Shown here in pieces: positions 8,515 to 33,619 of a DNA stretch of 64,000 nucleotides. The DNA is from an uncultured Tateyamaria sp. (lineage in GTDB: Bacteria > Pseudomonadota > Alphaproteobacteria > Rhodobacterales > Rhodobacteraceae), in assembly GCF_947496075.1 (NCBI RefSeq), contig NZ_CANMBJ010000002.1:558001-622000 (forward strand), written 5' to 3'. The first letter of the stretch is position 1; every line of letters starts with the position of its first letter. The notes below the pieces were generated by a model that made no database searches, had not been told where the DNA came from, and saw nothing but the letters and a program-made list of their open reading frames with translations. A program made the position numbers and the translations under genes.

Positions 8515-8590
8515 CATGGCAGATGGCGGGCGGCGAGGGGGCCGTTGGTTCCCGACACCCGGCACACCCCGTCCGGTTTCGTCTTCTCTC

Positions 8591-8799
8591 GCTGGCAGGT
8601 CTCCCGGCTTGCGGATTTCGAGGCGCCTCTCCATTGAGAGCGGGCCTCATCGGCCACCCTGCCTTCCCGGCGCTTGGCCAGTGGCGTGGGGGGACCTCTC
8701 CGGTCACGGTCGCGGGGGCGGCTGCTTTGACAAGAATTTTCACTCGAAAATTCCTGCGCGGCATTCCCTTTTCACCCGAAGCGGACCCCGGGCACCAGC
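8591..8799 (-). ncRNA. Cobalamin (AdoCbl) riboswitch
   Basis: Read on the minus strand, the element shows the class landmarks in order: GGTGCC at the 5' end, AAAAGGGAATGCCG, a GTGAAAATTC arm within an AATTTTC/GAAAATT hairpin, GCAGCCGCCCCCGCGACCG, GCCACTGG with CGGGAAGG, and the B12 box GCCGGGAGACCTGCC. GCTGG at the 5' end pairs with CCAGC at the 3' end as P1. It precedes the DUF1636-cobWNGHIJ operon, so high adenosylcobalamin should lower expression of the whole pathway segment. Confidence 0.95.
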
Positions 8800-8804
8800 A
8801 GAAC

Positions 8805-8834
8805 CGTAGTGCGCGGGCGGCGATACAGAGTCAA
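8805..8834 (-). promoter_or_regulatory. Candidate promoter of the cob operon
   Basis: On the minus strand TTGACT (8834-8829) is followed after 18 bases by ACTACG (8810-8805). Initiation would fall at about 8798, at the first base pair of riboswitch P1, which is where it should be. The -10 match is weak. Confidence 0.4.
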
Positions 8835-29239: not shown

Positions 29240-30411
29240 CGCAGCGGATCACCCTTTGAGAATGCAGGCAGCAACGTGCCGCACACCAGGTGGGACAGGA
29301 TGCGCGGTACTGGCGGGATCATCGACACCGGAAACAACACTCGGTCACGCAAGACCGGCAACCACCGGCTGTCGGATTGGTATTGCGGGGTGAAGGCCCA
29401 ACTCATCGTCTGGTAAGCGCGCACATGCCAGCGCCGCGCCTTGGCATAGACGGGCAGGGCGGCTTCCGGCCCGTGCGCCTCAATGGCTTGGGCGAGTGCA
29501 TAGGCGTCGAGCAACGCCATGTTTGCGCCTTGGCCCAGTTGCGGGCTGGCGCGATGCGCCGCATCCCCGATATGCACCACGCCACGCCCATAAGGCACCC
29601 TGAGTGTGCCATGCGCGTACCGCGCCATGGTGAACTGATCGGGATCAGTGATCTGATCGGCAAAGGCAGCAAAAGCTGGCCAAAGCCCGGACGCCTGTTC
29701 TTTCCATGCATCCAGACCCGTGGCACGCCATGCGGCGTATCCGTCGCTGGGCAAGGACCAGAAGATGGCAGCCATCGGTCCGGTCGCATCGGGTGGTGTG
29801 CCAATGGGCAGCACACCAACCATGTTGCTGGCCTTGCGATAGGTTTGGCGCAACTGATCCATTGGTAGATCGGTACCATCCGCCCATGGCACGTTTGCGC
29901 ACAATGCGCCGTAGGGCAGCTGGGTCGAGCGTATCGGCGTCAGGGGCGAACGTGCACCAAGCGCATCAATAACCAGATCGAAACCTGCGGCATTCTCCCG
30001 ACCCTCAAGCTCCAGACATCCGCCGCCTGCACCCGTTACCTTGGCGTTCAGGTGCATCGTGGTACCTGCGGCAGCGGCCCCTTCCCACAGCGCCGAAAAC
30101 AGAGCATTGCGATGAAGGGCCAGCCCCACATCTTTGCCATTGCGCCGATCATACCAGACATCCAGCACGCGCCGCCCATTTTCGGCCTCATGACCCAGCA
30201 TCCGGCTCACCCGGTTGCCGGTCGCCATGACCCGGTCGAGCACGCCGCAAGCCTCCAGAACGGTTTGTCCGACAGGTTGAATGACCAGCCCTGATCCCAC
30301 AGGCTCGGGTGCAATAAACTGGTCGAACACGGACACCTCGGCGCCGCGCTGACGCAGCAGGATTGCCGTAGCCAGGCCTCCGATGCCCGCCCCTGCAATT
30401 GCGATCTTCAT
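29236..30411 (-). CDS. FAD-dependent monooxygenase (PHBH/UbiH-type)
   Basis: 391 residues. The N-terminal dinucleotide fold is KIAIAGAGIGGLATAILL, DG-like motif LVIDALGARSPL, and the FAD-ribose motif VVHIGDAAHRASPQLGQGANMAL. This is the class A flavoprotein hydroxylase arrangement, so it probably oxygenates an aromatic or similar small molecule with NAD(P)H. The substrate is unknown. Start placed at MKIAIAGAG, with GGAA upstream. An ATG 11 codons earlier is possible. Confidence 0.85.
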   Translation of the reverse strand: MKIAIAGAGIGGLATAILLRQRGAEVSVFDQFIAPEPVGSGLVIQPVGQTVLEACGVLDRVMATGNRVSRMLGHEAENGRRVLDVWYDRRNGKDVGLALHRNALFSALWEGAAAAGTTMHLNAKVTGAGGGCLELEGRENAAGFDLVIDALGARSPLTPIRSTQLPYGALCANVPWADGTDLPMDQLRQTYRKASNMVGVLPIGTPPDATGPMAAIFWSLPSDGYAAWRATGLDAWKEQASGLWPAFAAFADQITDPDQFTMARYAHGTLRVPYGRGVVHIGDAAHRASPQLGQGANMALLDAYALAQAIEAHGPEAALPVYAKARRWHVRAYQTMSWAFTPQYQSDSRWLPVLRDRVLFPVSMIPPVPRILSHLVCGTLLPAFSKGDPLR

Positions 30412-30488
30412 TTCCGGTTCCGTTTTGACGCCTGTTTGCGTCACCCTAGGGATTTGCGCTTTGCAGGAAATGAGGCATCTTGGCCCAC

Positions 30489-30517
30489 TGGACGCTTCCG
30501 CAGACCCCGCCTATAAG
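30489..30517 (+). promoter_or_regulatory. Candidate ileS promoter
   Basis: TGGACG (30489-30494), a 17-base spacer and TATAAG (30512-30517) form a good sigma-70-type match. The predicted initiation point is within a base or two of 30524, where the short isoleucine-rich ORF begins. Confidence 0.5.
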
Positions 30518-30523
30518 GCCGCT

Positions 30524-30571
30524 ATGATGCGGAAGATCATCATTCAGCGAATTATATCCCCGGCGCTCTGA
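30524..30571 (+). CDS. Candidate isoleucine-rich leader peptide of ileS
   Basis: A 15-codon ORF encoding MMRKIIIQRIISPAL, with five Ile codons (three consecutive, then two consecutive, one being the rare ATA), ends about 95 bases upstream of isoleucyl-tRNA synthetase. Its ATG lies at the predicted transcription start, so it would be leaderless or nearly so. A stem-loop overlaps its last codons. This is what a ribosome-stalling attenuator for ileS would look like. No U-tract terminator is visible, so the mechanism is uncertain. Confidence 0.4.
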   Translation: MMRKIIIQRIISPAL

Positions 30572-30591
30572 CCAACCATTGAGACGCCGGG
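30559..30591 (+). promoter_or_regulatory. Leader hairpin upstream of ileS
   Basis: CCCGGCG (30559-30565) pairs with CGCCGGG (30585-30591), with TCT/AGA inside. The 5' arm is formed by the last codons of the leader ORF, so a ribosome halted at the Ile codons would block it. A competing pairing AGGTGC/GCACCT lies just downstream (about 30595-30623). Confidence 0.4.
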
Positions 30592-30664
30592 TAAAGGTGC
30601 TTGAGGCCACTCGCACCGCACCTCTCCGCTTTGCACGATATACGACCGATAAAGGACGCCACCC

Positions 30665-33619
30665 ATGTGCGCCGACACGCCTGAATACAAACACACCCTT
30701 AACCTGCCCAAGACCGACTTTCCGATGCGTGCGGGTCTGCCCAAGCGCGAGCCCGGATGGCTGGAGCGGTGGGCGCGGATCGGTGTCTATGACCGTCTGC
30801 GGGAGAAGGAGGGACGGGAACCGTTCACCCTGCACGATGGTCCGCCCTATGCGAACGGCCACCTGCATATCGGCCACGCCCTGAACAAGACGATCAAGGA
30901 CATGATCGTGCGGTCTCACCAGATGATGGGCCGCGACGCACGCTACATCCCCGGCTGGGACTGCCACGGCCTGCCCATCGAGTGGAAGATCGAGGAACAG
31001 TACCGCAAGAAGGGCCGCGACAAGGACGAGGTGCCGATCAACGAATTCCGCGCCGAGTGCCGCGATTTCGCCGCCGGTTGGGTCGACATCCAGCGCGAAG
31101 AGTTCAAGCGGCTGGGCATCACCGGCAACTGGGACGAACCCTATCTGACCATGGATTTCCATGCCGAGCGGGTGATTGCCGAGGAGTTCATGAAGTTCCT
31201 GATGAACGGAACGCTTTATCAGGGATCGAAGCCCGTTATGTGGTCGCCTGTCGAACAAACGGCCCTAGCCGAGGCAGAAGTCGAGTACCACGACAAAGAC
31301 AGCTTCACGATCTGGGTGAAGTTCAAGGTGGTGGCGGGACAAGACCTGCCAGCGGTCACGCTGGACGACACCAAGGGTCACGTCGCACCTTTGGGCGATC
31401 TGGAAGGTGCGCATGTCGTGATCTGGACCACGACTCCTTGGACCATGCCATCGAACAAGGCGGTCGTTTATGGTCCCGACATCTCTTACGGCCTGTACGA
31501 AGTCACGGGTCGGCCCGAGGAATGCTGGGCAAACATCGGTGATCGCTACATCCTTGCCGACAACCTCGCGTCGGATGTGCTGGGTCGCGCGCGGCTTGAT
31601 GAGACCATGTATCGCCGCCTGCGCGATGTCACGGCCGACGAGATGAGCCAAGTGCGCCTGACCCACCCATTAAAGGGCGCCGAGGATGCAAATGGCGAAT
31701 GGGACGACATCCGCGACTTCCGGGCTGCCGACTTCGTTACTGACACGGAAGGCACCGGATTTGTACATTGCGCGCCGTCCCACGGGATGGATGAGTACGA
31801 ACTCTATCGTGAACTGGGCATGCTCGAACAGGTCATCACCTACAACGTGAACCCCGATGGGCGGTTCCGGGACGACCTGCCGTTCTTTGGCGGCAAGGCG
31901 ATCCTGAAACCCAACGGTAAAGAGGGTAACGCCAACGCCGCCGTCATCGACAAGCTGGCCGAAGTGGGCGGGCTGCTGGCGCGTGGGAAGATCAAGCACA
32001 GCTACCCGCATTCCTGGCGTTCGAAAGCGCCGGTGATCTACCGCAACACGCCGCAATGGTTCGCGGCCATCGACAAGCCTGTGGGCGACGGGCAGGACAC
32101 GCACGGGACCACGATCCGTGAACGCGCGCTGACCGAGATCGACAATGTGAACTGGACGCCCCGTTCGGGCCGCAACCGTCTGCACTCCATGATGGAGGCG
32201 CGCCCGGATTGGGTGCTGTCGCGTCAACGGGCATGGGGCGTACCGCTCACCTGCTTCACCAAGAAGGGCGCGCTGCCGACGGATGAAGACTTCCTGCTGC
32301 GCAACCCGCAAGTCAACCGCCGCATCACGTCGGCATTCGAAGCGGAAGGGGCCGACGCCTGGTACGACGAAGATGCCAAGCAGCGTTTCCTCGAAGGCGT
32401 CGTGAACCCCGACGACTACGAGCAGGTGACAGATATCCTTGATGTGTGGTTTGATTCAGGGTCCACCCACGCCTTTGTCCTGCGTGATCGCAAGGACGGC
32501 ACAGAGGACGGCGTGGCCGATGTCTATATGGAAGGCACCGACCAACACCGTGGCTGGTTCCACTCGTCCCTGCTGCAATCGGTTGGCACCACGGGCCATG
32601 CGCCTTACCGCAACGTGGTCACACACGGCATGACGCTGGACGAGAAGGGCTTCAAGATGTCGAAGTCCATCGGCAACACGATCGTGCCGGACGAGGTGGT
32701 CAAACAGTACGGCGCCGACATCCTGCGGCTTTGGGTGGCGCAGACCGACTACACCGCCGACCAGCGGATCGGGCCGGAGATCCTGAAAGGTGTGGCCGAC
32801 AGCTACCGCCGCCTGCGCAACACGATGCGGTTCATGCTGGGCTCGCTCTCGGACTTTACCGAAGCGGACCGGACCGACGCCGCCGATATGCCGGAACTCG
32901 AACGCTGGGTGCTGCACCGCTTGGCCGAACTGGACCAGACGGTGCGCGAGGGCTACGCGGCCTTCGACTTCCAGCGCGTTTTCTCCGCCGTCTTCACCTT
33001 TGCCACCGTGGACCTGTCGGCCTTCTACTTCGACATCCGCAAGGATGCGCTGTACTGCGACGGTGATACGGCCGAACGGCGTGCGGCGCGCACGGTGCTT
33101 GATCTGCTCTATCACCGGCTGACAACATGGCTGGCCCCAATCCTCGTGTTCACGATGGAGGAGGTCTGGCTGGAGCGTTATCCCGGCGATGATAGCTCGG
33201 TCCACCTGACCGATATCCCGGAAACGCCGACCGCATGGCGCGACGATGCGCTGGCCGTGAAATGGACGGGCGTGCGCAGCGCGCGGCGTGTGGTGACGGC
33301 GGCTCTGGAAATCCAGCGCACGGACAAAGTCATCGGCGCATCGCTCGAAGCTGCCCCGGTTGTCTATGTCGAGGATGCGAATCTCGCGGCGTCTCTGACC
33401 GCGTTGCCCTTTGCAGATATCTGCATCACGTCGCAGATCAACGTGATAACGGATCCCGCGCCGTCAGACGCATTCCGTTTGCCCGAAGTGCCCGACGTGG
33501 CGGTGGTCTTTGCCAAGGCAGACGGCGCGAAATGCGCCCGTTGCTGGAAAGTGCTGCCCGACGTGGGCACGCATGGGCACGAAGGTGTCTGTGGGCGGTG
33601 CGAGGACGCTCTGGGATAG
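30665..33619 (+). CDS. ileS: Isoleucyl-tRNA synthetase
   Basis: 984-residue class Ia synthetase charging tRNA-Ile. HIGH motif is HLHIGHALN and the KMSKS motif is GFKMSKSIGNT. The editing CP1 domain lies between (VIWTTTPWTMPSNKA and a GTGFVHCAPSHG block). The zinc-binding C-terminus has CARCWK and CGRCEDAL. The start MCADTPEYKHTLNLPKTDFPM is near the usual family N-terminus, with AAAGGA upstream. It appears to be monocistronic, preceded by a leader with possible attenuation features. Confidence 0.97.
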   Translation: MCADTPEYKHTLNLPKTDFPMRAGLPKREPGWLERWARIGVYDRLREKEGREPFTLHDGPPYANGHLHIGHALNKTIKDMIVRSHQMMGRDARYIPGWDCHGLPIEWKIEEQYRKKGRDKDEVPINEFRAECRDFAAGWVDIQREEFKRLGITGNWDEPYLTMDFHAERVIAEEFMKFLMNGTLYQGSKPVMWSPVEQTALAEAEVEYHDKDSFTIWVKFKVVAGQDLPAVTLDDTKGHVAPLGDLEGAHVVIWTTTPWTMPSNKAVVYGPDISYGLYEVTGRPEECWANIGDRYILADNLASDVLGRARLDETMYRRLRDVTADEMSQVRLTHPLKGAEDANGEWDDIRDFRAADFVTDTEGTGFVHCAPSHGMDEYELYRELGMLEQVITYNVNPDGRFRDDLPFFGGKAILKPNGKEGNANAAVIDKLAEVGGLLARGKIKHSYPHSWRSKAPVIYRNTPQWFAAIDKPVGDGQDTHGTTIRERALTEIDNVNWTPRSGRNRLHSMMEARPDWVLSRQRAWGVPLTCFTKKGALPTDEDFLLRNPQVNRRITSAFEAEGADAWYDEDAKQRFLEGVVNPDDYEQVTDILDVWFDSGSTHAFVLRDRKDGTEDGVADVYMEGTDQHRGWFHSSLLQSVGTTGHAPYRNVVTHGMTLDEKGFKMSKSIGNTIVPDEVVKQYGADILRLWVAQTDYTADQRIGPEILKGVADSYRRLRNTMRFMLGSLSDFTEADRTDAADMPELERWVLHRLAELDQTVREGYAAFDFQRVFSAVFTFATVDLSAFYFDIRKDALYCDGDTAERRAARTVLDLLYHRLTTWLAPILVFTMEEVWLERYPGDDSSVHLTDIPETPTAWRDDALAVKWTGVRSARRVVTAALEIQRTDKVIGASLEAAPVVYVEDANLAASLTALPFADICITSQINVITDPAPSDAFRLPEVPDVAVVFAKADGAKCARCWKVLPDVGTHGHEGVCGRCEDALG

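Follow-up and report, generated by a model that had tools for sequence, protein, structure and literature searches.

A leader ORF with a fixed CGA-AUU core and hairpin precedes ileS in Alphaproteobacteria and may act as an isoleucine-responsive attenuator

Upstream of ileS in the window (the whole stretch of 64,000 nucleotides analysed here) lies a short, isoleucine-rich leader ORF that runs into a hairpin, H1. Across the class, the most widely conserved feature is, as judged from the sequences compared, not the run of Ile codons but CGA-AUU-A together with H1 at a fixed distance. We read the leader as an isoleucine-responsive, ribosome-mediated attenuator and give this reading a probability of about 0.6; from the sequence we infer that it senses charged tRNA-Ile. 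The element is probably how these bacteria sense isoleucine shortage. A wider and more specific proposal, put forward tentatively, is an undescribed alphaproteobacterial isoleucine leader regulon, in which ileS would be joined by a stand-alone ACT gene of the IlvN type, one or more genes like ilvA, and genes of the AAA_33 and NTF2-like kinds. It would be governed by one strict element, a leaderless ORF with CGA-AUU exactly 11 nt from an invariant CCCGG hairpin, in which a single hungry codon, a rare P-site codon and an entrance hairpin would replace the run of control codons, without an intrinsic terminator.

The earlier note on this DNA had described a bounded ORF with five Ile codons in two runs, whose last codons form one arm of a CCCGGCG/CGCCGGG stem; both descriptions hold, and ORF and hairpin are listed with the other features of the locus in Table 1. 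A Gln codon adjoins CGA in the window, hence the Ile run is shifted there by one codon upstream when compared with the family. The gene name ileS we take from the earlier finding and from established knowledge of the protein family. The element is present as a single copy in the window's genome. Folded alone, the leader together with the ileS start folded better than shuffled sequences (z = -1.9, with 6 of 200 shuffles as good). A scan of the whole window against Rfam 15 at gathering thresholds gave no match on the leader and none for the T-box model, and no Rfam family reached threshold on the element in 20 related loci. The sole Rfam 15 match in the window was an ordinary cobalamin riboswitch (8577-8811, minus strand, 91 bits).

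Table 1. Features of the ileS leader locus, in window coordinates.
Feature	Position	Strand	Basis
Likely promoter: putative -35 TGGACG (30489-30494), 17 nt, -10-like TATAAG (30512-30517)	30489-30517	+	sequence
Leader ORF MMRKIIIQRIISPAL plus stop (ATG at 30524, TGA at 30569-30571), probably leaderless	30524-30571	+	ORF and frame test
First Ile run, ATC ATC ATT	30536-30544	+	Ile codons conserved in family
Core CGAATTA (Arg CGA, Ile AUU, next A)	30548-30554	+	family and class conservation
Hairpin H1, CCCGGCG CTC ... GAG A CGCCGGG, stop codon in loop; arms CCCGGCG (30559-30565; spans the end of the Ser codon and the codons for Pro and Ala) and CGCCGGG (30585-30591)	30559-30591	+	pairing and covariation
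Hairpin H2, arms GGTGC (30596-30600) and GCACC (30613-30617)	30596-30617	+	pairing and covariation
Stretch ahead of ileS, rich in C and poor in G, that shares bases with the right arm of H2; possible Rho loading site	30613-30653	+	base composition
AAGGA, likely ileS ribosome-binding site	30652-30656	+	sequence
ileS, isoleucyl-tRNA synthetase, 984 aa, presumed controlled gene	30665-33619	+	ORF

The comparison within the family covers the 80 top-ranking of 596 IleS matches in species genomes, which were taken irrespective of their upstream sequence; none was dropped, and with the window they make up 81 rows. The loci come from genera that we place, from general knowledge, in the Rhodobacteraceae/Roseobacter group, or are labelled Rhodobacteraceae, Paracoccaceae or Rhodobacterales, one (L010) being labelled Alphaproteobacteria only. 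The best segments of their IleS proteins are 72-89% identical. Leader ORF, core and H1 were found upstream of ileS in 80 of 80 loci and in the window; the leader of L042 was caught by a looser pattern and not by the first one. The window's leader is therefore not a chance product, which answers the worry of the earlier note that Ile codons may cluster by chance. The alignment of relatives which it had proposed showed frame, start codon, Ile codons and hairpin to be conserved.

In the frame test, ATG opens leader frame 0 in 79 of the 81 rows, and frames 1 and 2 in two and six, with GTG serving as the start in L075 and L079. The ORF had also been placed at the start of the transcript. In 80 of 81 rows an ATG or GTG in frame with the core lies 12-16 nt past the first T of a -10-like hexamer, in 68 at 12 or 13 nt, and the window's TATAAG is 12 nt from the leader ATG (first T to A). 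This short spacing points to a leaderless start, and the family's leader ORF is probably leaderless. A simple sigma-70 scan of window positions 30200-31000 returned no promoter, so that the transcript start is a deduction and not a mapped position.

CGA, ATT and the A that follows are each present in 80 of 81 rows. The third bases of the core are thus fixed although, in the long ORFs of the window, CGA makes up 83 of 1176 Arg codons (7%) and ATT 152 of 698 Ile codons (22%). The three codons preceding CGA encode Ile in 59, 70 and 69 of the 81 rows, and in the two closest to CGA variation is greatest at the third position. Since Ile is kept while the third base varies, these codons look selected for the amino acid in this frame. 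Before CGA, Ile accounts for 209 of 626 codons (33%), versus 4.6% of 15,194 codons in the long window ORFs; the leader thus carries codons for the amino acid of its downstream gene, as a trp-type attenuator does. Where CGA is lost (G252, L086; GCC in G252), the leader still reads MMYRMIIAIICPAV. The leader of L048 keeps CGA-ATT and has no Ile besides the AUU of the core. In all 81 rows the leader stop precedes the end of H1.

Both hairpins are backed by the 81-row alignment. For H1, 97.8% of cells are paired and both sides have changed at 5 of 10 pairs; for H2 the paired fraction is 92.8%, and its middle pair appears as C-G in 40, U-A in 30, U-G in four and G-U in one of the 81 rows. All five measures exceeded all 500 shuffles, and versions slid along the alignment scored lower, except that a slide of -2 tied on pairs changed on both sides. 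Compensatory changes weigh most here, because related sequences can exceed shuffles without any structure. Judged by this covariation, H1 and H2 are supported side by side and do not compete. We also modelled four ribosome states thermodynamically in the 81 sequences, assuming that the ribosome covers 13 nt beyond the base with which the A-site codon begins. H1 had a mean modelled probability of 0.92 without a ribosome; it was 0.88 when the A site held the pre-CGA codon, 0.19 when it held AUU and 0 for a ribosome at the stop. Pairing of the right arm of H1 with the left arm of H2 (the 2:3 helix) stayed below 0.09 on average in every state, and access to the ileS ribosome-binding site was the same in all of them. 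The competing downstream pairing suggested in the earlier note finds no support in these results. Its remark that no U-tract terminator was to be seen agrees with our data: a simple scan of window positions 30200-31000 found none, and a U-run follows H1 in one and H2 in two of the 81 family rows, and H1 in six of 99 class instances. A classical terminator or ribosome-binding-site switch is unsupported, since the folding model gave neither a gain of the 2:3 pairing nor a change at the ribosome-binding site and U-runs are rare.

The gap before ileS is rich in C and poor in G in the family. From -52 to -12 of ileS the family averages 40% C and 17.5% G, a C/G ratio of 2.31 as against 1.14 in the 34 window ORFs of at least 300 aa, some of which are perhaps not genes. 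This is suggestive only of a Rho loading site: the ratio before the gene is merely 1.31 in the class ileS set and 1.22 in the ACT set, so Rho is a lead for the window's family and not a finding.

Outside the family the element was followed in several ways. A covariance model built on the family matched in 12 of 385 class genomes, five of them in the window's family; of the matches in other families, four precede ileS and three a small ACT-type gene (L089 by eye). The strict pattern CGAATTA-N4-CCCGG-N(4-30)-CCGGG was found in 86 of the 385 genomes, its reversed control once (in G168). In a draw of 398 genomes from the phylum, counted by hand, the strict pattern occurred in 49 of the 135 class members (among them 24 of the 27 from the window's family) and in four of the 263 other genomes, with no match to the reversed pattern. 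The four out-of-class matches are in G556, G698, G716 and G776, three of them in one family.

Because a pattern search selects for the core, 110 ileS upstream regions were drawn independently of it: 384 of 387 genomes had an IleS match, the best 110 by IleS score were kept and 450 nt upstream were searched. Exact core and hairpin occurred in 50 of these regions. Five (L207, L223, L231, L238, L267) fall within the coding sequence for the C-terminal end of RibF; without them 45 of 110 remain, namely five of six in the window's family and 40 of 104 outside it. The other 64 of the 104 have no counted core within the 450 nt, where an element ahead of an upstream ribF would escape the count. In the five dropped cases the ribF gene that holds core and hairpin stands directly before ileS, and four are from one family; they may have arisen by chance through the conserved end of RibF or represent the element inside a gene. 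Neither the 110 reverse complements nor searches with six shuffled cores gave an exact match. With one mismatch allowed, a core followed by a hairpin turned up in three regions that have no exact core; these carry no meaning, since 16 of 110 reverse complements and 1-7 of 110 regions for the six shuffled cores gave the same. The element, 12 fixed bases and a hairpin, precedes ileS in 21 families of the class by hand count, the window's own included.

In 44 of the 45 class ileS loci CCCGG follows 4 nt past the core, the exception (L201) reading CCCGA, and in 43 class ileS hairpins, whose right arms were picked by pairing, the outer four pairs of H1 are invariant while inner pairs differ, some on both sides. 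An ATG-opened reading frame spans the core as frame 0 in 44 of these 45 loci, as frame 1 in three and as frame 2 in four. Ile is less prominent there: it accounts for 70 of the 546 codons that precede CGA in the class ileS set, five of whose members belong to the family, and for 38 of 432 in the ileS leaders found by pattern outside the family. Of those outside leaders, 36 of 39 stop inside H1. A further observation concerns ATA, which makes up 21 of the 38 Ile codons before the core in ileS leaders outside the family, versus 3 of 50 in ACT leaders and 15 of 209 in the family; by codon usage, it is as if the outside ileS leaders were also watching the ATA-reading tRNA.

Among 99 instances of the strict pattern, 39 precede ileS and 46 an ACT gene; L099 and L176 appear to be matches by chance. 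L091 and L097 mark one and the same site, which is counted once, as L091, in the set of 45 ACT instances; L089 lacks the strict pattern and is not among the 99. A threonine ammonia-lyase-like (IlvA-like) gene follows the element once (L124). Genome G051 holds the element three times, before ileS (L125), an ACT gene (L091) and this threonine ammonia-lyase-like gene. In the structural model, the fold of the ACT protein is closest to IlvN/IlvH and to other acetohydroxyacid synthase small subunits, and as modelled the ACT target is shaped like these subunits. By sequence, one of three proteins scanned matched the NCBIfam acetohydroxyacid synthase small subunit (E = 6e-4, 19 of 119 bits), one of six matched Pfam PF22629 (E = 0.028) amid other chance-level families, and PDB 2fgc was hit at E = 0.12 and 0.31. 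The ties of ileS and of the IlvA-like and IlvN-like ACT genes to isoleucine support, and are consistent with, an isoleucine attenuator. For the AAA_33 and NTF2-like targets we know of no link to isoleucine.

Leaders of these other targets share the frame. ATG opens frame 0 in 43 of 45 ACT leaders (frames 1 and 2 in one and none) and in 12 of 15 others (two and none). Ile makes up 50 of 456 codons before CGA in ACT leaders; no Ile enrichment was seen before AAA_33 (1 of 54), NTF2-like (2 of 50), ilvA-like (0 of 4, a single leader) or ribF (0 of 8, a single leader). Twenty of the 45 ACT leaders stop in H1 and 24 run on, and 23 of these long leaders end at most 40 nt past an overlapping ATG that opens at least 75 codons. 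The overlap of the long leaders with the ACT start suggests that they are translationally coupled to the ACT gene. A programmed frameshift from leader into ACT gene was also considered. The frame could be set in 33 of 45 instances. The ACT gene is in frame +1 in 23 of them, and this frame stays open as far back as the core in 20 of the 33; +1-frame stops in L088, L118, L134 and L144, and frames 0 or 2 in ten, nevertheless tell against a frameshift as the general mechanism. The ACT leaders are enriched in an outer helix CGAAU:RUUCG (21 of 45; shuffle mean 9.5, maximum 17), the class ileS set (6 of 39, mean 6.1) and the family (8 of 81, mean 7.2) are not; as the enrichment is confined to ACT leaders, we rejected this helix as the cause of the conserved core. 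Three ACT loci of one genus (L168, L170 and L173, in G260, G033 and G162) carry two core-hairpin copies about 180-200 nt apart upstream of the ACT gene, the second copy in L168 and L170 being without an in-frame start. The gene after the ACT gene falls into a cluster across nine loci (L100, L103, L126, L135, L138, L166, L179, L180, L181), of which the L100 member matches DUF4743.

If the leader is an isoleucine attenuator, transcription would begin at the leader ATG or no more than a few bases from it, and a ribosome would load on the leaderless end, as the spacing suggests. It would translate about ten codons and arrive at CGA-AUU. When the P site holds CGA and the A site AUU, 11 nt separate the first base of the P-site codon from the first pair of H1 downstream, which puts the hairpin at about the mRNA entrance of the ribosome. 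Given this spacing, a ribosome waiting for Ile-tRNA would stand at the foot of H1, beside a rare codon. When Ile-tRNA is scarce, the ribosome would wait at AUU or at an Ile codon just before, and the rare CGA codon and the hairpin may prolong the wait. When Ile-tRNA is plentiful, the ribosome would open H1 and terminate at the stop in its loop in leaders of the ileS type, and in about half of those of the ACT type it would read past the start of the next gene. Its position would set the output of the downstream gene, presumably with more IleS when isoleucine is short. As to the read-out, our guess would be Rho-dependent termination in the untranslated C-rich gap for ileS and translational coupling for the ACT genes.

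The attenuator reading does not account for everything. Conservation of CGAATTA at the base level, the A of the next codon included, and of CCCGG/CCGGG goes beyond what codon sensing would need, and the AAA_33, NTF2-like, ilvA-like and ribF leaders have little or no other Ile. Such invariance would be the direct signature of an RNA signal, in which core and H1 are read as RNA by a metabolite, a protein or the ribosome, the ORF is merely a carrier and translation resets or exposes the site. The exact core in 50 of 110 class regions with one-mismatch cores (three) at background, CCCGG at 4 nt in 44 of 45 loci and the fixed outer pairs of the 43 hairpins point in the same direction. We nevertheless find an RNA signal unlikely: 44 of the 45 leaders in the class ileS set have an open frame 0, Ile codons are kept with third-base changes in the family and are also kept where CGA is lost, the outer helix is enriched in the ACT group only and Rfam gave no match. 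A possible complementarity of CGAAUUA to a stretch of 16S rRNA is probably due to chance. The near-constant R, I and P could also belong to an arrest peptide, R-I-x-x-P-[AV], that responds to free isoleucine inside the exit tunnel and not to Ile-tRNA at the A site, much as TnaC is an arrest peptide that senses tryptophan; in many short leaders the stop indeed comes one to three codons past P. P and A/V are, however, dictated by the CCCGG hairpin sequence and so are not independent evidence. An arrest peptide would tolerate CGN and ATY, whereas conservation of CGA, ATT and the next A (80 of 81 rows each) is at the level of bases rather than of the TnaC-like peptide, and 24 of 45 ACT leaders have no nearby stop. 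This makes a peptide sensor quite improbable.

More doubtful still is a classical trp-type switch, in which an Ile stall would favour an antiterminator, formed by the right arm of H1 and the left arm of H2, over H2 as terminator. The segments are complementary: the 2:3 helix can pair in 81% of cells, above its slid versions, and modelled H2 fell by more than 0.1 in 35 of 81 sequences, and rose by as much in 12, when the pre-CGA codon rather than the stop held the ribosome. Covariation of the 2:3 helix is weak, though, its modelled probability is as low as given above, and only two of 81 rows have a U-run after H2. By kind we would group the leader with the leader-peptide attenuators, but the marks of the classical trp mechanism (exclusive hairpins, U-tract terminator) were not found in our tests. 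Of the ribosome-stalling attenuator design proposed in the earlier note, the Ile-rich leader and the conserved frame and hairpin are supported, as are targets linked to Ile; the switch is not supported, and the class-wide invariant is a single CGA-AUU instead of an Ile run.

To our knowledge, little is settled about the control of tRNA synthetase levels in most alphaproteobacteria, and T-boxes are not known to provide it in this group. The ileS element in 21 families offers a concrete candidate regulon and a first lead to the role of the IlvN-like ACT protein. If our reading is true, a single codon, set at a constant distance from a hairpin, would suffice for attenuation here, with no terminator involved. 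Leader-peptide attenuation itself is known; the strict core appears to be new, with nothing matching in Rfam or in the papers within search reach. In a search over titles and starts of abstracts, with supplements and subscription papers outside its scope, no description of the core-hairpin element was found beyond a passing "ileS leader CDS" in Caulobacter, an absence that is weak evidence.

Among known systems, the trp, ilv and pheST attenuators use mutually exclusive hairpins and an intrinsic terminator, and a T-box RNA reads tRNA directly, without translation. With the former, of which the Caulobacter ilv leader is given as an example (PMC4117421), the ileS leader shares a short ORF with codons for the amino acid of the downstream genes, but neither exclusive hairpins nor an intrinsic terminator were found at it. 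T-box control of ileS (PMC1262725, PMC2494555) concerns the same gene and the same presumed signal, charging of tRNA-Ile, unlike which the window has no T-box match. A small CDS on an alphaproteobacterial ileS mRNA, CCNA_03934 of Caulobacter crescentus, served as negative control in an overexpression assay of a ribosome-profiling study of 2014 (PMC4117421); in contrast to the present leader, the account of it there gives no sequence, regulation, hairpin, core or conservation. Another parallel is the uORFC-8-2 motif upstream of cysS in Rhodobacterales, a cysteine leader for which ribosome-mediated attenuation was proposed in 2021 (PMC8632094), and whose survey mentions neither "isoleucyl" nor "ileS" in its main text. 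Like the ileS leader, it is a leader ORF with cognate codons ahead of a tRNA synthetase gene, and both occur in the order Rhodobacterales. In the cysS motif the Cys codons are part of the first stem, with a U-run terminator after it, whereas the ileS leader has Ile codons, no terminator and a fixed core before the stem. A Methylorubrum study places a transcript start 150 nt ahead of ileS, which would fit a leader there, and the leaderless trpL of Sinorhizobium meliloti (PMC10117765) shows that such leaders exist in alphaproteobacteria.
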